Of a DNA stretch of 64,000 nt, positions 2,767 through 20,427 are shown one piece after another (the first letter of the stretch is position 1; each line of letters opens with the position of its first letter). The stretch lies in NCBI GenBank assembly GCA_018402545.1, contig JAGYIL010000002.1, positions 434,001 to 498,000 of the forward strand, given 5' to 3'. The DNA is from Saccharospirillum sp. Lineage in GTDB: Bacteria > Pseudomonadota > Gammaproteobacteria > Pseudomonadales > Natronospirillaceae. The notes below the pieces were generated by a model. It saw nothing but the letters and a program-made list of their open reading frames with translations, was not told the origin of the DNA and ran no database searches. The position numbers were made by a program, and so were the translations under genes.

Positions 2767-4143
2767 TCAGAAGAACGTCAGTCCCACCTGGAACAAACGC
2801 TCGACGTCGCTGATTCTTCGTTTGTCGATTAGAAACAGGATGACGTGGTCGTCGGATTCAATGACCAGATCATCGCGGGCGATCAATACTTCTTCGTTAC
2901 GCACAATGGCGCCAATGGTACAGCCTTCGGGCAAGTCAATGTCTTCAATGGCGCGGCCGACCACCTTGGAGGAGCGTTTGTCGCCGTGGGCAATGGCTTC
3001 GATCGCTTCAGCCGCACCGCGACGCAGGGAGTGTACGTTGACAATGTCGCCGCGACGCACGTGGGTCAGCAGACTGCCAATGGTGGTTTGTGACGGTGAA
3101 ATGGCAACGTCGATTTCACCGCCTTGCACCAGGTCGACGTAAGCAGAGTTGTTGATCAGCGTCATCACCTTGCGCGAGCCAAGGCGCTTGGCCAGCATGG
3201 AGGCCATGATGTTGGCTTCGTCGTCGTTGGTCAGTGCCAGGAAAATATCGGTGTCTTCCACGTTTTCGTCGAGCAGTAAATCCTGGTCGGAGGCGTCGCC
3301 GCGTAGCACGACGGCATGGTTGAGATTTTCGCTCAGCCACTGGCAACGGGCTTCGTTGCGTTCCAGCAATTTTACCGAGTAGCGGCTTTCCAGTCCCAGC
3401 GCCAGCCGATAGCCAATGTTGCCGCCACCGGCGATGATAATGCGTTTATAGGAGCGCTCCTTGCTGCGCAGCTCGCTCATGACAGCGCGAATGTCAGTGC
3501 GCCCGGCAATGAAAAACACCTCATCATCAGCTTCGATGACGGTGGAGCCCTCAGGAGTGATCGGCCGGTCTTTGCGGAAAATGGCGGCAACCCGTGTGTG
3601 CACCGAGGGCATGTGCTGTTTAAGAAACCGCAGTTCCTGACCCACCAGTGGTCCGCCGTGGTAGGCCCGTACGGCTACCAGTTGCAGTTTGCCGTCGGCA
3701 AAGTCCAGAACCTGCAGGGCGCCGGGTGTTTCTATTAGCCGTTTAATGTAATTGGTGACCAGTTGCTCGGGGCTGATCAGTACATCTACCGGGAAGGCTT
3801 CTGGCGCGAAGAGTTTTTCACTGTGCTGGGTGTATTGCGGGCTGCGAATTCGGGCAATCTTGGTCGGCGTGCGAAACAGGGTGAAGGCTACCTGGCAGGC
3901 GGCCATGTTAACTTCGTCGCTGCTGGTCACGGCAATCAGCAAGTCGGCGTCTTCGGCACCGGCCTGGGCCAGAATATTGGGCAACGAGGCCATGCCGGTG
4001 ACGGTACGAATGTCGAGCCGGTCCTGCAGGTTGCGCAGGCGCTCGGCATCGGTGTCGACGACGGTAATGTCGTTGTCTTCACTGGCCAGGTTTTCCGCCA
4101 GCGTGGCACCGACCTGGCCGGCCCCCAACATGATAATTTTCAC
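2767..4143 (-). CDS. trkA: Trk system potassium transporter TrkA
   Basis: Cytosolic NAD(H)-binding regulatory subunit of the Trk K+ uptake system. The 458-residue protein has the duplicated RCK architecture: a first Rossmann segment starting [19 protein letters not shown], then an RCK_C segment, then a second Rossmann segment around residue 235 ([18 protein letters not shown]) and a second RCK_C. Acidic residues at the ends of the beta-2 strands ([18 protein letters not shown]) suit adenine-dinucleotide binding. It follows rsmB after 213 nt that hold a large inverted repeat, so trkA-trkH may have their own promoter or receive read-through from def-fmt-rsmB. Confidence 0.96.
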
Positions 4144-4190
4144 GCCTGTTTCCTTTTAACTCAGTTTCAGAGTTTGATTAGACGCTTTGG

Positions 4191-4323
4191 TCCGCGTCGG
4201 ATGTTGGTGGTACCCCTGCGGGGTCGGGCGGAATGCCGCCCACTCAATCCGTCCATGGAGCCTAGACCGCAACATCCCTGTTGCGGACTCCCCCGCAGTG
4301 GCACCACCAACATCCGCCGCTCG
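4191..4323. repeat. Long imperfect inverted repeat with CCGTCCATGG core (copy B)
   Basis: Outer arms read CGGATGTTGGTGGTACCCC near 4198-4216 and its imperfect complement near 4295-4317. Inside lie further hairpins: GGGCGG/CCGCCC near 4226-4241 and CCGCAACA/TGTTGCGG near 4267-4286. The core CCGTCCATGGAGCCTAG at 4249-4265 differs by one base from copy A at 1018-1034, although the arms are unrelated. It lies between rsmB and trkA. Confidence 0.8.
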
Positions 4324-4356
4324 CACTCTGCAAGCCGAAATTAGAGCGATTAAGGC

Positions 4357-5646
4357 TTATGCATCCACTTTTTCAAGCAACGCAAAATAGAATCCGTCAT
4401 GGCCGCCCGGTTGTGGCAGCCACTGTACCCCGACCTCGACCTCGGCGTCACCTGCCAGGTTCAGCCTAACGGCTCTGGCATCGGCCTGGCGCGCCAGAAA
4501 GGCACTGATGCGCTCCGAGTTTTCCCGTTGTAACAGTGAGCAGGTCGCGTACAGGAGGGTTCCGCCCGGCTTGAGTGTTTGCCAGAGGCGATGCAGCAGG
4601 GTGTCCTGCACCTGGGTGAGGAATTCAACGTCTTTGGGTTTGCGCAGCAGCTTGATGTCCGGGTGGCGGCGAATGACGCCGGTGCCGGAACAGGGTGCGT
4701 CCAGAAGAATGCGATCAAAGGGAGTGCCATCCCACCAGCTTTTAAGTTCGGCGGCATCGGCCGCTTTCAATTCGGCCTTCAGACCAATGCGGTCGAGGTT
4801 TTCCTGCACCCGTTCCAGTCGCCCGGCGTCGATGTCGAGGGCGGTGACCTGCACGTCGGCCCGCTCCAGCAGGTGGCCGGTTTTGCCGCCCGGGGCGGCG
4901 CAGGCGTCCAGAATGCGCTCGCCGTCTTGAGGGTTGAGCAGGAAGGCGCATTGCTGGGCGGCTTCGTCCTGAACGCTGACCCGGCCCTGCTCGAAACCGG
5001 GTAGCTGTAAAACACCGACCGGTTGCGCCAGAGTAACGGCTGAGGCCGTGATCGCCGAGGGCTCAACCGACAGGCCCGCGGTGTCGGCTTCGGCCAGCCA
5101 GGCATCACGGCTGCCCTGGCGCTGATTCACGCGCAGCGTCATTGGACCCTGGTCGTTGCCGTTGGCCATGATGTCGAGCCATTGCTCCGGGTAATCCTTG
5201 CGCAGCTGGCGGGTCAGCCAGCCGGGCATGGCGTGCTGATTTTGCAGGTTGGCGAGCAGTTCCTCGCGTTCACGCTGAAAGCGCCGCAGTGCCGCATTCA
5301 GCAGGGCTTTGGCCCAGGGCTTCTTCAGCGGTTTGGTGGCGTCGACGGTTTCATTGATGGCCGCGTGTTCGGGAATATCCAGATACAGCAGCTGATACAA
5401 GCCCACCAGCAACAGCATCTGTATGACCCGCTCTTTATGCTGGATCGGTTTATCGAGCAGGGTGCGTGACAGTTCGTCGAGGCTGAGATAGTGCCGAATC
5501 GTTCCATACACCAGTTTCTGGTAGAGGCCGCGATCAGTCTCTTCCAGGGTGTCACGGTAGCGCGGCAGCAAATCGCTCAGCGATCGACCCTGATCGGCGA
5601 CCTGCAATACGGTCTGAGCCGCCAGTACACGGACATTCTGGCTCAT
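4357..5646 (-). CDS. rsmB: 16S rRNA (cytosine-967 C5)-methyltransferase RsmB
   Basis: SAM-dependent methyltransferase that forms m5C967 in 16S rRNA. The 429-residue protein has an N-terminal NusB-like helical domain (about 1-140), followed by a Rossmann methyltransferase domain with the SAM-binding ILDACAAPGGKTGHLLE near residue 248, DAPCSGTGVIRRHPD near 315 and the catalytic-cysteine motif LLYATCSLLQREN near 370. The start codon overlaps the fmt stop by 4 nt (ATGA), which fixes it and implies translational coupling in a def-fmt-rsmB operon. Confidence 0.96.
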   Translation of the reverse strand: MSQNVRVLAAQTVLQVADQGRSLSDLLPRYRDTLEETDRGLYQKLVYGTIRHYLSLDELSRTLLDKPIQHKERVIQMLLLVGLYQLLYLDIPEHAAINETVDATKPLKKPWAKALLNAALRRFQREREELLANLQNQHAMPGWLTRQLRKDYPEQWLDIMANGNDQGPMTLRVNQRQGSRDAWLAEADTAGLSVEPSAITASAVTLAQPVGVLQLPGFEQGRVSVQDEAAQQCAFLLNPQDGERILDACAAPGGKTGHLLERADVQVTALDIDAGRLERVQENLDRIGLKAELKAADAAELKSWWDGTPFDRILLDAPCSGTGVIRRHPDIKLLRKPKDVEFLTQVQDTLLHRLWQTLKPGGTLLYATCSLLQRENSERISAFLARQADARAVRLNLAGDAEVEVGVQWLPQPGGHDGFYFALLEKVDA

Positions 5647-6614: not shown

Positions 6615-7121
6615 TCAGGACGCCATCTGTTTGTGCTGTTTTTCCAGCTTTTTGCGAATCCGCGTGCGCTTCAGGTTGGAGAGGTAGTCGACAAAGAGTT
6701 TGCCATCGAGATGGTCGATCTCATGCTGAATGCAAATGGCCAGCAGATCTTCAGCAACCAGCTCAAAGGGCTCGCCGTCGACGTTCAGTGCCTTCACGTG
6801 AATTTTGTCGGAACGGCTTACTTTTTCGTAATAGCCCGGTACCGACAGGCAGCCTTCCTGGTATTCGATGTCACCTCCGAGTTTTTCGTATTCGGGGTTG
6901 ATGAAGACGTGTGGGTCATCCTGCTCTTCGGAGATATCCACCACAATCACGCGTTCATGCACGTTTACCTGGCTGGCAGCCAGGCCGATACCGGGTGCAT
7001 CGTACATGGTTTCCAGCATGTCGCTGGCCAGGGTGCGAATGCGGTCATCGACCGTCTTTACCGGTTTGGCGACGGTTCGCAAGCGCGGATCGGGGTATTC
7101 GAGTATATCCAGTAATGCCAT
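6615..7121 (-). CDS. def: Peptide deformylase
   Basis: Metallohydrolase that removes the N-formyl group from nascent proteins. All three class I motifs are present: GIGLAASQV (motif 1), EGCLSVPGY (motif 2, metal-binding Cys) and QHEIDHLDG (motif 3, HExxH metal ligands). The length of 168 residues is normal. It is the first gene of the def-fmt-rsmB operon and diverges from the lysM-dprA operon across a 530-nt gap, so promoters for both directions should lie there. Confidence 0.97.
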
Positions 7122-7650
7122 GGTTCCAGTGCCTTGTCTTAATTCGGAGAGTTATGAGCGCATTTTACACAATATGGGCGCAAACCGGTGCTTGCAACGC
7201 ACGGTAAAGCGCTAAAAACGGTAAAAAATCCGGGACATACAGCGTTAGGCCATGGCTTCGACCCGGGGTCCGGTCCGGGTTTAGTGTGACATTGCTCTCA
7301 AAACCAGCGATAAAGCGTCTAAAACAGCTCACAGTGGGCTTTAATATGTCTCGCTAAGCGATTGACTGCTAAACTAAAAGTGGTCACTCTTAGAGCAGGT
7401 GTAAGCGCTTAATACGGACCCGGCCCCAGGTACCTTGACCGGTGAAGGGTTAACGTTGCTCCCGGCGGGTTACCAACCGCGCAGAATCAAACGGCAAATT
7501 CTGCCTGTTTTGCGGGTCGGCTTTCCGGGCGACTGCTTATATACTGATCACACCAGTGATTGTTTGGTTACCAATTAGTATTGATCGCACCATTGACCTT
7601 ATTGTGGCGCACCATAGACCGTACCGTAGATTGTTATAGGGAAACTGGCC
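7122..7650. promoter_or_regulatory. Divergent intergenic region def / lysM, no gene recognised
   Basis: This 529-nt stretch separates divergent def and lysM genes. I see no credible coding region and no tRNA. It must hold promoters for both operons, but I could not assign -35/-10 pairs with confidence. Several short dyads occur (for example around GACCCGGGGTCCGGTCCGGG near 7260). The lysM start is preceded by AGGGAAACTGGCC, a loosely spaced ribosome-binding site. Confidence 0.5.
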
Positions 7651-8838: not shown

Positions 8839-9936
8839 ATGGATGAACGCCTGCACTGGCTGTGCTGGGTATTGACGCCCGGTTTCGGCCTGAAACGTTG
8901 CCACCAGCTTTTGGACGTGGTGGACGACCCCCGCGATCTGTTCCGGCACGCCCGGCGCTGGCCGCTACCCCCCGCTATCAAGCAAACACTGAGCGACATT
9001 CATAACCTGGGTGAACAGCACCCGGTATACCGGCGTGCGCTGGAGCAGATGCGCTGGCAGGAGCAGGAAAATTGCCATCTGGTCAGTTTGCAGTGCGACG
9101 CCTATCCGCAGTTGTTGACCCACATTCCGGACCCGCCGCTGATGCTGTGGGTGCGCGGTAATCCGGATCTGCTGGCGCAGAGCCAGGTTGGGGTGGTCGG
9201 CAGCCGCAATGCCAGCCTTTCGGCGCGTAAACACGCTCTGGCCCTGGGGCGGGGCATCAGTGAAGCCGGTTTCGTGGTCACCAGTGGCGGGGCAGCGGGC
9301 ATTGACGCCTGTGCGCATGAGGGCGCGCTGGAAGCCAGCGGCAAGACGCTGGCGGTGCTCGGCTGCGGGGTAGACATTGTTTACCCCAAGCAGAATGCGG
9401 GGCTGTTCTCCCAGGTTATACGTCACGGTGCTCTGGTGTCGGAATACCCACTGGGTACTCAGCCCAAGCCTGGTCATTTTCCGCGACGAAACCGCATCAT
9501 CAGCGGGTTAAGCGACGCCATAGTGGTGGTCGAAGCGGCCGAGCGCAGTGGCTCACTGATCACCGCCGATCACGCACTGGAGCAGGGCCGCGAGGTGTTT
9601 GCATTGCCCGGCGACATCAGCAATCCCAACACGGCAGGCTGCCACCGGCTGATTCAGGATGGCGCTCAGCTGCTGACCAGTATTGATGATTTGCTGGGCG
9701 ATGGCATGCTGGAATCACTGCGCATTCGCTCACCTGAAGCACCCTGCCCACCGCTGGACCCGAACCTGCCCGAACTGCAAACCACCCTGCTGGGGTTGCT
9801 GTCGTCGGAGCCACAGCCGCTGGACGTACTCAGTGACCATCTGGAATGCCCGTCCCATACCCTGCTGGAACCGTTGCTGGAACTGGAATTGGCCGGGTGG
9901 ATTCAACAGCAACCCGGGGGCTATTGCCGGCTTTAA
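8839..9936 (+). CDS. dprA: DNA-processing protein DprA
   Basis: Single-strand-DNA binding protein that loads RecA onto incoming DNA during natural transformation. The 365-residue protein has an N-terminal SAM-like region, the DprA/Smf Rossmann core (VGVVGSRNASLSARKHA near 118, TSGGAAGIDACAHEGAL near 150, FPRRNRIISGLSDAIVVVEA near 215, SGSLITADHALEQGREVFALPG near 238) and a C-terminal winged-helix region. It lies 114 nt after lysM. A full-length gene is compatible with transformability but is no proof of it. Confidence 0.95.
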   Translation: MDERLHWLCWVLTPGFGLKRCHQLLDVVDDPRDLFRHARRWPLPPAIKQTLSDIHNLGEQHPVYRRALEQMRWQEQENCHLVSLQCDAYPQLLTHIPDPPLMLWVRGNPDLLAQSQVGVVGSRNASLSARKHALALGRGISEAGFVVTSGGAAGIDACAHEGALEASGKTLAVLGCGVDIVYPKQNAGLFSQVIRHGALVSEYPLGTQPKPGHFPRRNRIISGLSDAIVVVEAAERSGSLITADHALEQGREVFALPGDISNPNTAGCHRLIQDGAQLLTSIDDLLGDGMLESLRIRSPEAPCPPLDPNLPELQTTLLGLLSSEPQPLDVLSDHLECPSHTLLEPLLELELAGWIQQQPGGYCRL

Positions 9937-9955
9937 ATGCCGTAGGACATGGAAG

Positions 9956-10130
9956 GACGCGGGACAATAGAAGACGCGGAACACCAAGGGACGCAAAACA
10001 TGTAACGACGCAATACGAACAAGCCTTCCATTTGTGTCTTGCGTCAGTTAATTGCCTACGTATTTTCATGGTCTGCGTCTGTTCATGTCCTGCGTCTTTC
10101 GATGTTTCGCGTCCTTTATTGTTCCACGTC
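9956..10130. repeat. Inverted array of phased 17-nt repeats between dprA and tsaC
   Basis: The left part has four units in which GACGC recurs at 9956, 9973, 9990 and 10007, exactly 17 nt apart. The right part has six units with the complementary GCGTC (or a one- or two-base variant) at 10041, 10058, 10075, 10092, 10109 and 10126, again exactly 17 nt apart. The arms can pair into a long imperfect hairpin of about 180 nt. It fills most of the dprA-tsaC gap. Confidence 0.85.
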
Positions 10131-10187
10131 TTTTAATTCAGTACTCTTCTCGCCTCTTCCTTCGATGTAAAAGCGGACGCCCTGACT

Positions 10188-11718
<1,531 letters not shown>

Positions 11719-19884: not shown

Positions 19885-20349
19885 ATGTTGAACAGGGTAA
19901 GTCCCGTGTCGGAAATATCAGTTGGCCAGTTGGCGCGACGTGCCGGGGTGTCGGTTGCCACCCTGCATTTTTACGAACAGAAAGGGCTGATATACAGCCA
20001 CCGCAATGCCGGTAACCAGCGTCGCTACAACCGGCGCATGTTACGCCGGGTCGCCGTGATCAAGACGGCACAGCGGCTGGGGTTCAGCCTTAAAGAGATT
20101 GCCGGGATGTTCAGTGAACTGGGCGAGCATCAGGACATCACCAAAGACAACTGGCAGCAGTTGTCGGTGCGCTGGCACCAGGCACTGACCGAGCGCATTG
20201 AATCGATGCAACGCCTGCGCGATGAACTTAACACCTGCATCGGCTGCGGCTGTTTATCGATGGACAACTGCCGCCTGCGAAACCCGGACGATGCGCTTGG
20301 CGAGCAGGGCCCGGGGCCGGTTCTCTGGGAGGGGGGTGAAAAAAGCTGA
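19885..20349 (+). CDS. soxR: Redox-sensitive transcriptional activator SoxR
   Basis: MerR-family homodimer with a [2Fe-2S] cluster that activates promoters when oxidised by redox-cycling compounds. The N-terminal winged helix is typical (SVGQLARRAGVSVATLHFYEQKGLI), followed by a dimerisation helix and the diagnostic cluster-binding motif CIGCGCLSMDNC near residue 120, which matches the CxxCxCxxxxxC of SoxR. ATG 19885 gives a normal-length protein of 154 residues; GTG 19906 is an alternative. A SoxR box stands 530 nt away in front of the convergent VOC gene. No soxS is visible, as in most non-enteric bacteria. Confidence 0.93.
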   Translation: MLNRVSPVSEISVGQLARRAGVSVATLHFYEQKGLIYSHRNAGNQRRYNRRMLRRVAVIKTAQRLGFSLKEIAGMFSELGEHQDITKDNWQQLSVRWHQALTERIESMQRLRDELNTCIGCGCLSMDNCRLRNPDDALGEQGPGPVLWEGGEKS

Positions 20350-20427
20350 GAGCTTCGAGCTGTGAGCTGTTAGCTTAAAACTCTCAGCTCGCAGCTCACA
20401 GCTCACAACTCGCAGCTAATAGCTCAT
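20350..20427. repeat. Heptamer-periodic inverted repeat after soxR
   Basis: The sequence runs in exact 7-nt steps: GAGCTTC, GAGCTGT, GAGCTGT, TAGCTTA on the left (20350-20377) and, after 8 nt, AGCTCGC, AGCTCAC, AGCTCAC, AACTCGC, AGCTAAT, AGCTCAT on the right (20386-20427). The two halves are complementary and can form a hairpin between the convergent soxR and VOC genes, where it could terminate transcription from either side. A related heptamer array occurs at 29139-29173. Confidence 0.8.

Follow-up and report, generated by a model that had tools for sequence, protein, structure and literature searches.

What is the phased inverted repeat that occupies the gap between dprA and tsaC in a Saccharospirillum genome, and does it act as a structure or as a row of sites? 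It lies in the window, by which we mean the whole stretch of 64,000 nucleotides that was analysed. An earlier note on this DNA took it for a hairpin of phased 17-nt repeats, either a protein-binding array or a cruciform born by slippage rather than a simple terminator. The whole element spans 9933-10136 and consists of two facing arms of direct 17-nt repeats with the consensus GACGYRRVACANNRANN. Its parts and neighbours, in window coordinates, are as follows.

8839-9936, plus strand: dprA (Pfam DNA_processg_A and DprA_WH), with its 3' end inside the left edge of the array.
9933-9938, plus strand: left terminal hexamer TTAAAT (family consensus T[GT]RANN), containing the dprA stop codon TAA at 9934-9936; defined from the sequence and from the information border at -6.
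9939-10023, plus strand: left arm, five direct 17-nt units pointing right, at 9939 (degenerate), 9956, 9973, 9990 and 10007.
10024-10045, no strand: degenerate centre, defined by alignment with the S. impatiens array.
10046-10130, minus strand: right arm, five 17-nt units pointing left, at 10046 (degenerate), 10063, 10080, 10097 and 10114.
10131-10136, minus strand: right terminal hexamer TTTTAA (reverse complement TTAAAA), an edge common to S. impatiens.
10188-10766, plus strand: tsaC (Sua5/YrdC family; Pfam Sua5_yciO_yrdC, from the list of open reading frames).

Aligned with this centre, S. impatiens has the palindrome GACGTC together with a sixth left unit, and an alternative reading places one minus-strand unit at 10029-10045 within it. 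The start of tsaC lies 51 nt past the right edge of the array, provided that the GTG at 10188 is the start codon. The word GACGC had been noticed four times at exact 17-nt steps, and it is indeed found so on the plus strand, at 9956, 9973, 9990 and 10007. Its complement GCGTC had been counted six times; the phase holds at all six positions, with the exact word at only four of them (10041, 10075, 10092 and 10109) and variants at 10058 and 10126. The array also extends further than had been described, with a degenerate fifth plus-strand unit at 9939 and terminal hexamers that reach to 9933 and 10136. The observation is thereby partly confirmed and is correct in substance.

The 17-nt phase in the dprA-tsaC array is far beyond chance. 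Within the 64-kb window there are five pairs of GACGC or GCGTC at a distance of 17, all between 9900 and 10200, and none at distances of 14-16 or 18-21; phased triples of these words number three, against none in each of 100 Markov-1 simulations. TRF reports 3.4 copies of period 17, and a general repeat search did not flag the array. That the phase never slips is true of this array and not of all its relatives, some of which contain steps of 16 or 18 nt. Among successive strong units less than 30 nt apart, the S. impatiens regions have a step of 17 nt in 197 of 200 cases; the window genome outside the window has it in 19 of 22, the other three being two steps of 16 and one of 18.

Two outcomes had been named that would speak against the element, the absence of another copy in the genome and the absence of conservation in close relatives, and both turn out otherwise. 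A genome search for GACGC-N12-GACGC-N12-GACGC, a check that had been proposed, returns five matches, with none for the reversed control. The window genome holds eight arrays of the same unit and pitch, and 35 two-unit matches with at most three mismatches (reversed-pattern control, 0), one of which, at C1:1139323, is isolated and probably due to chance. The array is kept in Saccharospirillum impatiens DSM 12546, where the two-unit search, again with at most three mismatches, gives 223 matches (reversed control, 1). Eighteen regions of S. impatiens, chosen for their matches, contain at least 32 arrays, 20 of them two-armed and 12 one-armed. Four of these 12 single arms (L075 8273 and 9415, L088 and L149) stand close to a stretch of N or to the end of a contig, so that a partner arm may be missing there.

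Outside these two genomes the arrays disappear quickly. Three-unit arrays occur in 2 of 390 genomes and 1 of 142 genera of the order, and in 2 of 22 genomes of the family, with none in the other four genomes of the genus or in the other 16 of the family. The exact four-unit pattern, searched over 84,980 species, gives 13 stretches, all in S. impatiens, in a search that possibly excluded the window genome's own records and whose exact pattern decayed arrays escape. In a two-unit search of 38 genomes, two other genomes of the order (G036 and G037) have one match each with three mismatches, which are taken as chance. The dprA-tsaC gap is short and array-free in genomes G002 and G005, and G003 has no array match genome-wide. 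In G004 (L127) the sequence in this gap, upstream of tsaC, is another one and carries inverted repeats of the CCCTCCCAGG type. Viral contigs contain no stretch with the exact pattern, and plasmid and phage collections have no match for the one S. impatiens array used as query; iterons of plasmids or phages were rejected on these grounds. No covariance model of Rfam matches 9800-10300 at E values up to 10. Judging from the titles and abstract openings in open-licence PMC text, no paper deals with such arrays in Saccharospirillum or S. impatiens, and broader searches of that text listed none on this family.

The many copies in S. impatiens allow the unit to be described position by position. Counted from the outer edge, it reads TNRANN-GACGY-RRV-ACA. 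Over 242 S. impatiens units (from the 46 of 49 arms that show no phase slip), positions G1, A2, C3, G4, A9, C10, A11 and A15 are near-invariant; position 5 is nearly always a pyrimidine, positions 6, 7 and 14 are mostly purines, position 8 is rarely T, and positions 12, 13, 16 and 17 are loose. The position table of the consensus contains no internal dyad. Arms usually comprise three to eight tandem units, and in two-armed arrays the plus-strand arm comes first and the minus-strand arm second, the units facing each other over a centre whose sequence is frequently the palindrome GACGTC or GACGC-N4-GCGTC. Arms have a sharp outer border: in 49 of them from S. impatiens there is hardly any information from -25 to -7 (0.26 bit at -12, 0.12 bit at -7), and a T[GT]RAR signal begins at -6. 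Along the arm there is a gradient, outer units favouring T at position 5 and GG at positions 7-8, inner units favouring C and an A-rich 7-8. At one place (L076 in S. impatiens, 7038-7152) an array is followed by one extra unit on each strand. A protein-coding repeat is ruled out, since a 17-nt unit breaks the reading frame, and CRISPR was rejected since the units are contiguous, degenerate and without spacers.

The window contains a second phased and degenerate array with facing arms, at 20341-20426, which is built of heptamers AGCTNNN (AGCTGAG, AGCTTCG, AGCTGTG and others). A run of 19 such heptamers closely precedes one 17-nt array of the window genome (L028 5134-5266); heptamers of this type are also found in the corresponding gap of S. 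impatiens (L147 4215-4242), at L078 15987-16021 and at L086 7441-7475.

Five of the eight arrays of the window genome occur in the same gap in both species and with the same arm layout: the two-armed array at dprA-tsaC, and single arms behind a BrnT/BrnA pair, behind coaE (named by eye; here the sequence past the arm is not alignable between the species), between an flgE-like and an flgF-like gene, and beside a gene of the LysR type. In the 26 orthologous unit pairs of these loci, a set that leaves out two flgE-flgF unit pairs with 1-nt gaps, differences number 17 in 208 comparisons at the eight core positions and 128 in 234 at the nine variable ones; fourfold degenerate sites differ in 2309 of 4713 (30 genes from five paired regions, none of them from the L075/L024 pair, where no gene passed the filter). 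By these proportions the variable positions behave as neutral sites and the core is held. The core is thus retained while neutral sites are saturated, though the conservation measured in this way is biased upward because the five shared loci are those still recognisable in both genomes. The core match is 97.1% over the 242 S. impatiens units and 93.2% over 46 units of the window genome, or 92.4% (377 of 408) once five units first omitted are included, and these values refer to a unit model trained on units that were selected by their core. Single arms also hold the core, at 96.2% in S. impatiens (52 units of nine arms, with L075 8273 and 9415 placed among the doubles and L148 dropped for its 16-nt step) and at 93.8% over 20 units in the window genome.

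Hypermutation of the variable positions was rejected, since shared units differ at 55% of them and the flanking genes differ at as many as 49% of their fourfold sites. The longest tract common to two of the eight arrays of the window genome is 16 nt, as compared with an average of 15.5 for synthetic arms of ten units, the arrays themselves being mostly shorter than that. In the absence of common tracts above chance, gene conversion is not indicated and is an unlikely cause of the core's retention there. Among 28 S. impatiens arrays compared, common tracts longer than the synthetic maximum of 29 nt occur only in pairs within one island, L076 (70 nt) or L077 (38 nt).

The position of the arrays relative to genes, which were called with our own codon-bias script rather than a published gene finder, gives the main clue to what they might do. 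The outer neighbour of an S. impatiens arm is a stop codon in 23 of 48 cases, at a median distance of 3 nt, and a start codon in 25 of 48, at a median of 49 nt (13 within 50 nt). The arms with a stop-codon neighbour have the extragenic 3'-end placement that is also seen in REP/BIME elements. We considered 26 gene ends lying between 35 nt outside and 70 nt inside an arm edge (22 from S. impatiens and four from the window genome, the dprA of the window being excluded). At 19 of these the array itself supplies the stop codon, eight times in the terminal hexamer and 11 times in the first two units; the other seven genes stop before the array. The gene pairs around the 20 double arrays comprise 15 co-directional, three convergent and one divergent pair (in which the left gene call is doubtful), with one array at an edge, and their orientation is not skewed, the array regions overall having 93 co-directional, 16 convergent and 18 divergent pairs. 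A bias against divergent pairs (1 of 20 versus 18 of 127) was considered and dropped without a statistical test. Several single arms are oriented against the surrounding genes (L150; L075 3002; L076 4656 and 6208).

Comparison of the two species also identifies sites that lack an array. The array that S. impatiens has at a metR-like locus (named by eye) occupies the place of a 38-nt spacer in the window genome and provides both flanking stop codons, the flanking coding ends being otherwise alike; the corresponding spacers in G003 and G004 are array-free and about 70-80 nt long. The 12 kb of the window genome that correspond to L079, where S. impatiens has three arrays, lack any unit, and at one of these sites the gap is taken up by some 2.5 kb of other sequence. 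The presence of an array in S. impatiens and its absence from the window genome at four loci thus imply that the arrays are dispensable at those sites. Runs of G stand directly outside two of the S. impatiens arrays of L079 (at about 2555-2570 and 9665-9682). At L075 3002-4560 of the same species, the gene of a DUF4351 protein (3428-4369) lies between a plus-strand arm and a minus-strand arm, resembling a split array.

What is seen directly comprises the unit, its phase, the facing arms, the sharp border, the position at gene ends, the occurrence in only two species and the retained core. The reading we favour, with a probability of about 0.43, is that the arrays are oriented binding sites for a putative branch-specific DNA-binding protein and serve as a boundary or terminator at operon ends. 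Each 17-bp unit would be the site for one subunit of a DNA-binding protein of the S. impatiens branch. The three to eight tandem units of an arm would seat a row of subunits at the fixed pitch of 17 bp, or 1.6 helical turns, and two facing arms would form a symmetric array. Since arrays often start at the stop codon of a gene, a bound array would be a polar roadblock, that is, a terminator or boundary that separates neighbouring transcription units, the roadblock terminator being the simplest version. We infer the binding of a protein, its being one protein and its effect on transcription. The single arms that face against the surrounding genes are not what a polar terminator would predict, and the 25 S. 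impatiens arms with a start-codon neighbour and the arrays missing at four sister loci also count against the binding-site reading.

A hairpin at the 3' end, like that of REP/BIME elements, would instead act in the transcript, by protecting or terminating the mRNA. Arrays sit just past stop codons, as described for REPs in PMC3733652, one strand of the dprA-tsaC array has a strong predicted RNA fold (-81.6 kcal/mol, z -7.1 against dinucleotide shuffles), and the purine- or pyrimidine-restricted positions tolerate G.U pairs. However, when the right arm is replaced by random units of the family, the real arms pair no better on average (mean z -0.22 and -0.24 for the two strands, standard error 0.24) in 18 of the 20 double arrays, L075 6114 and the N-bearing L078 14878 being excluded, and G.U pairs are no commoner than A.C in the sense strand (69:66). 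Four of these 18 arrays do pair better on the plus strand, with z from -1.6 to -2.2, and one has +1.9. Opposite units in the inner register share 3.91 of nine variable positions (76 pairs from the 18 arrays); for units in general the value is 3.89. It exceeds the 3.60 of left and right units of one array that are not in register and the 3.61 obtained with the order of the right arm shuffled (P 0.03). The gradient from outer to inner units acts in the same direction as this excess (3.86 for units of equal inner rank versus 3.79) and looks too small to explain the whole of it; together with the four better-pairing arrays, the excess leaves room for some selection on pairing. On the other hand, single arms keep the core with no partner to pair with, and one shared single arm lies past an apparent intrinsic terminator (by eye, in the L028/L147 alignment). 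The hairpin thus seems mostly incidental, a by-product of two arms built from one site; hairpin or cruciform as the main selected feature was set aside on the mean pairing, and we regard the REP/BIME-like reading as quite unlikely. Pairing at the level of random units, combined with a core kept in single arms, favours action at the level of DNA, with each unit putatively bound in one orientation. Satellite DNA without function, generated by slippage, is very improbable. Tandem units of fixed length would suit it, as would the clearest recent unit duplication that we have seen, a pair of units of 34 nt repeated about three times in tandem at L078 11632-11767 in S. impatiens. Yet neighbouring units within an arm resemble each other no more than units in general do (3.95 versus 3.89 of nine variable positions), the core is conserved against saturated neutral sites and many arrays begin at stop codons.

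The main rival to the binding-site reading, which we consider somewhat unlikely, is that the arrays are the ends or joints of a mobile cassette-like element, in which the units would bind a transposase or recombinase, the palindromic centre would be the point of crossover and genes, often toxin-antitoxin pairs, would move as arm-gene-arm. A double array standing alone at core genes, like the one at dprA-tsaC, would then be an empty element. Small operons, often toxin-antitoxin pairs, are indeed set between arrays in L075, L076, L077 and part of L078 of S. impatiens, and they include Pfam matches to HI1420/Gp49, Polbeta, ParE and BrnT, a nucleotidyltransferase just under the cut-off and HEPN partners recognised by eye only. 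The sharp outer border and the array that replaces a 38-nt spacer at the metR-like locus also speak for movement, and multi-site inverted ends are known from Tn7 and Mu. Two copies of a higBA-like segment share 92.8% identity over 820 nt, and their similarity stops inside arrays, at the centres or no more than about 30 nt away; this could reflect cassette exchange at the centres or plain recombination. It is the only clear duplicated cassette, and homologous recombination could account for it. The arrays, however, are not duplicates of each other: units of the same rank are hardly more alike than others (3.93 versus 3.78 of nine), and a core kept at shared loci despite neutral saturation would be unexpected in dead insertions. 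As for the criteria of a MITE, array-free sites exist, the copies are unalike, and no target duplication is visible by eye at the metR-like locus, the sole cleanly comparable site. Each of the two genomes has a single Y1 transposase match with no array in the surrounding 2-3 kb (L156, 2076 nt, with one weak single unit; L161, 3219 nt). Mobilisation by RAYT, a transposase whose gene is flanked by GTAG-type REPs, was rejected, Y1 matches occurring in 14 of the 22 genomes of the family, array-less ones among them. A link to integrons was likewise rejected, an integrase over the cut-off being present in 12 of 22 family genomes and three-unit arrays in 2 of 22. The window genome has a full-length integrase match (contig C4:173768-174700, L175, 407 bits) with no array unit in the surrounding 3.9 kb; S. 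impatiens, which has most of the arrays, has no integrase over the cut-off, its best match (C23:55908-56443) consisting of two pieces that are both below it.

We therefore keep to oriented binding sites at operon ends as the preferred reading, and the two parts of the earlier suggestion fare differently. The protein-binding array was the better half of the guess, and putative binding is favoured because conservation applies to the unit as such, in single and paired arms alike, and because arm-arm pairing averages the consensus level; the cruciform born by slippage is poorly supported by the comparison of adjacent units. That the array is not a simple terminator is fair on its anatomy, a scan for a short GC-rich stem with a U run having found no such site within 9933-10136, and termination could still come about by another route. 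The boundary and mobile ideas can also be combined, with arrays spread by movement and retained for a boundary function. In its fullest form, which we think unlikely as a whole, the proposal is of a previously undescribed system of the Saccharospirillum branch, in which a protein would assemble at a 17-bp pitch on facing oriented rows at operon ends, rows that often carry the upstream stop codon and join toxin-antitoxin cassettes, separating transcription units and letting them shuffle.

Intergenic repeat families of bacteria are usually palindromes or inactive remnants of mobile elements. Here a short, non-palindromic site recurs in strict phase and in facing arms at dozens of gene ends in one species. 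If a protein does assemble on these arrays, they would represent a young, lineage-specific way of bounding operons, and the five shared loci, the array-free sister sites and the toxin-antitoxin genes between arrays would offer a place to study how such a system spreads. The arrays would also be a ready bait for finding the putative protein.

Several known systems share some of these features. Integron cassette arrays have toxin-antitoxin cassettes separated by an imperfect inverted sequence, attC, with a stop codon near or inside the site and without tandem 17-nt units; the Saccharospirillum arrays resemble them in the toxin-antitoxin cassettes set between arrays and in where the stop codon lies. 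Polar terminator arrays, such as the Sal boxes bound by TTF-I and the Tus/Ter system, are oriented repeats at the ends of genes or of replication. The likeness here lies in oriented repeats at gene ends, and it suggests a mode of action by analogy only.

Among dispersed repeats, REPs are described in PMC3733652 as extragenic palindromes of 20-40 bp, single or paired, often in facing pairs and mostly downstream of coding regions near stop codons, with CGTC REPs found mainly in alphaproteobacteria; the main text of that paper does not mention Saccharospirillum. The arrays resemble the CGTC-tagged REPs in being extragenic, near stop codons and in facing pairs, with CGTC at the outer edge of the minus-strand arm, and differ from REP/BIME as described there in their 17-nt unit, which is non-palindromic and directly repeated, usually three to eight times per arm. 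The BrickBuilt MITE of Porphyromonas gingivalis, which contains an internal minisatellite, is described in PMC4596501 as one tandem run between leader and tail ends. It is likewise intergenic, restricted to a species and made of a short tandem unit without spacers (23 nt in BrickBuilt), whereas the Saccharospirillum arms face each other, their units vary at set positions and their outer edge often falls on a stop codon. The TAACTGA repeats of Beggiatoaceae, according to PMC4679880, are 7-nt units found mostly just upstream of start codons. They share with the arrays that they are abundant intergenic direct repeats, proposed as binding sites and tied to no obvious gene class, and the arrays differ in having 17-nt units in facing arms. 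As described in these three sources, none of REP/BIME, BrickBuilt and TAACTGA has two facing arms of direct 17-nt sites that are degenerate position by position. On these descriptions, we file the arrays as a new variant among dispersed extragenic repeats, set apart from all three families.
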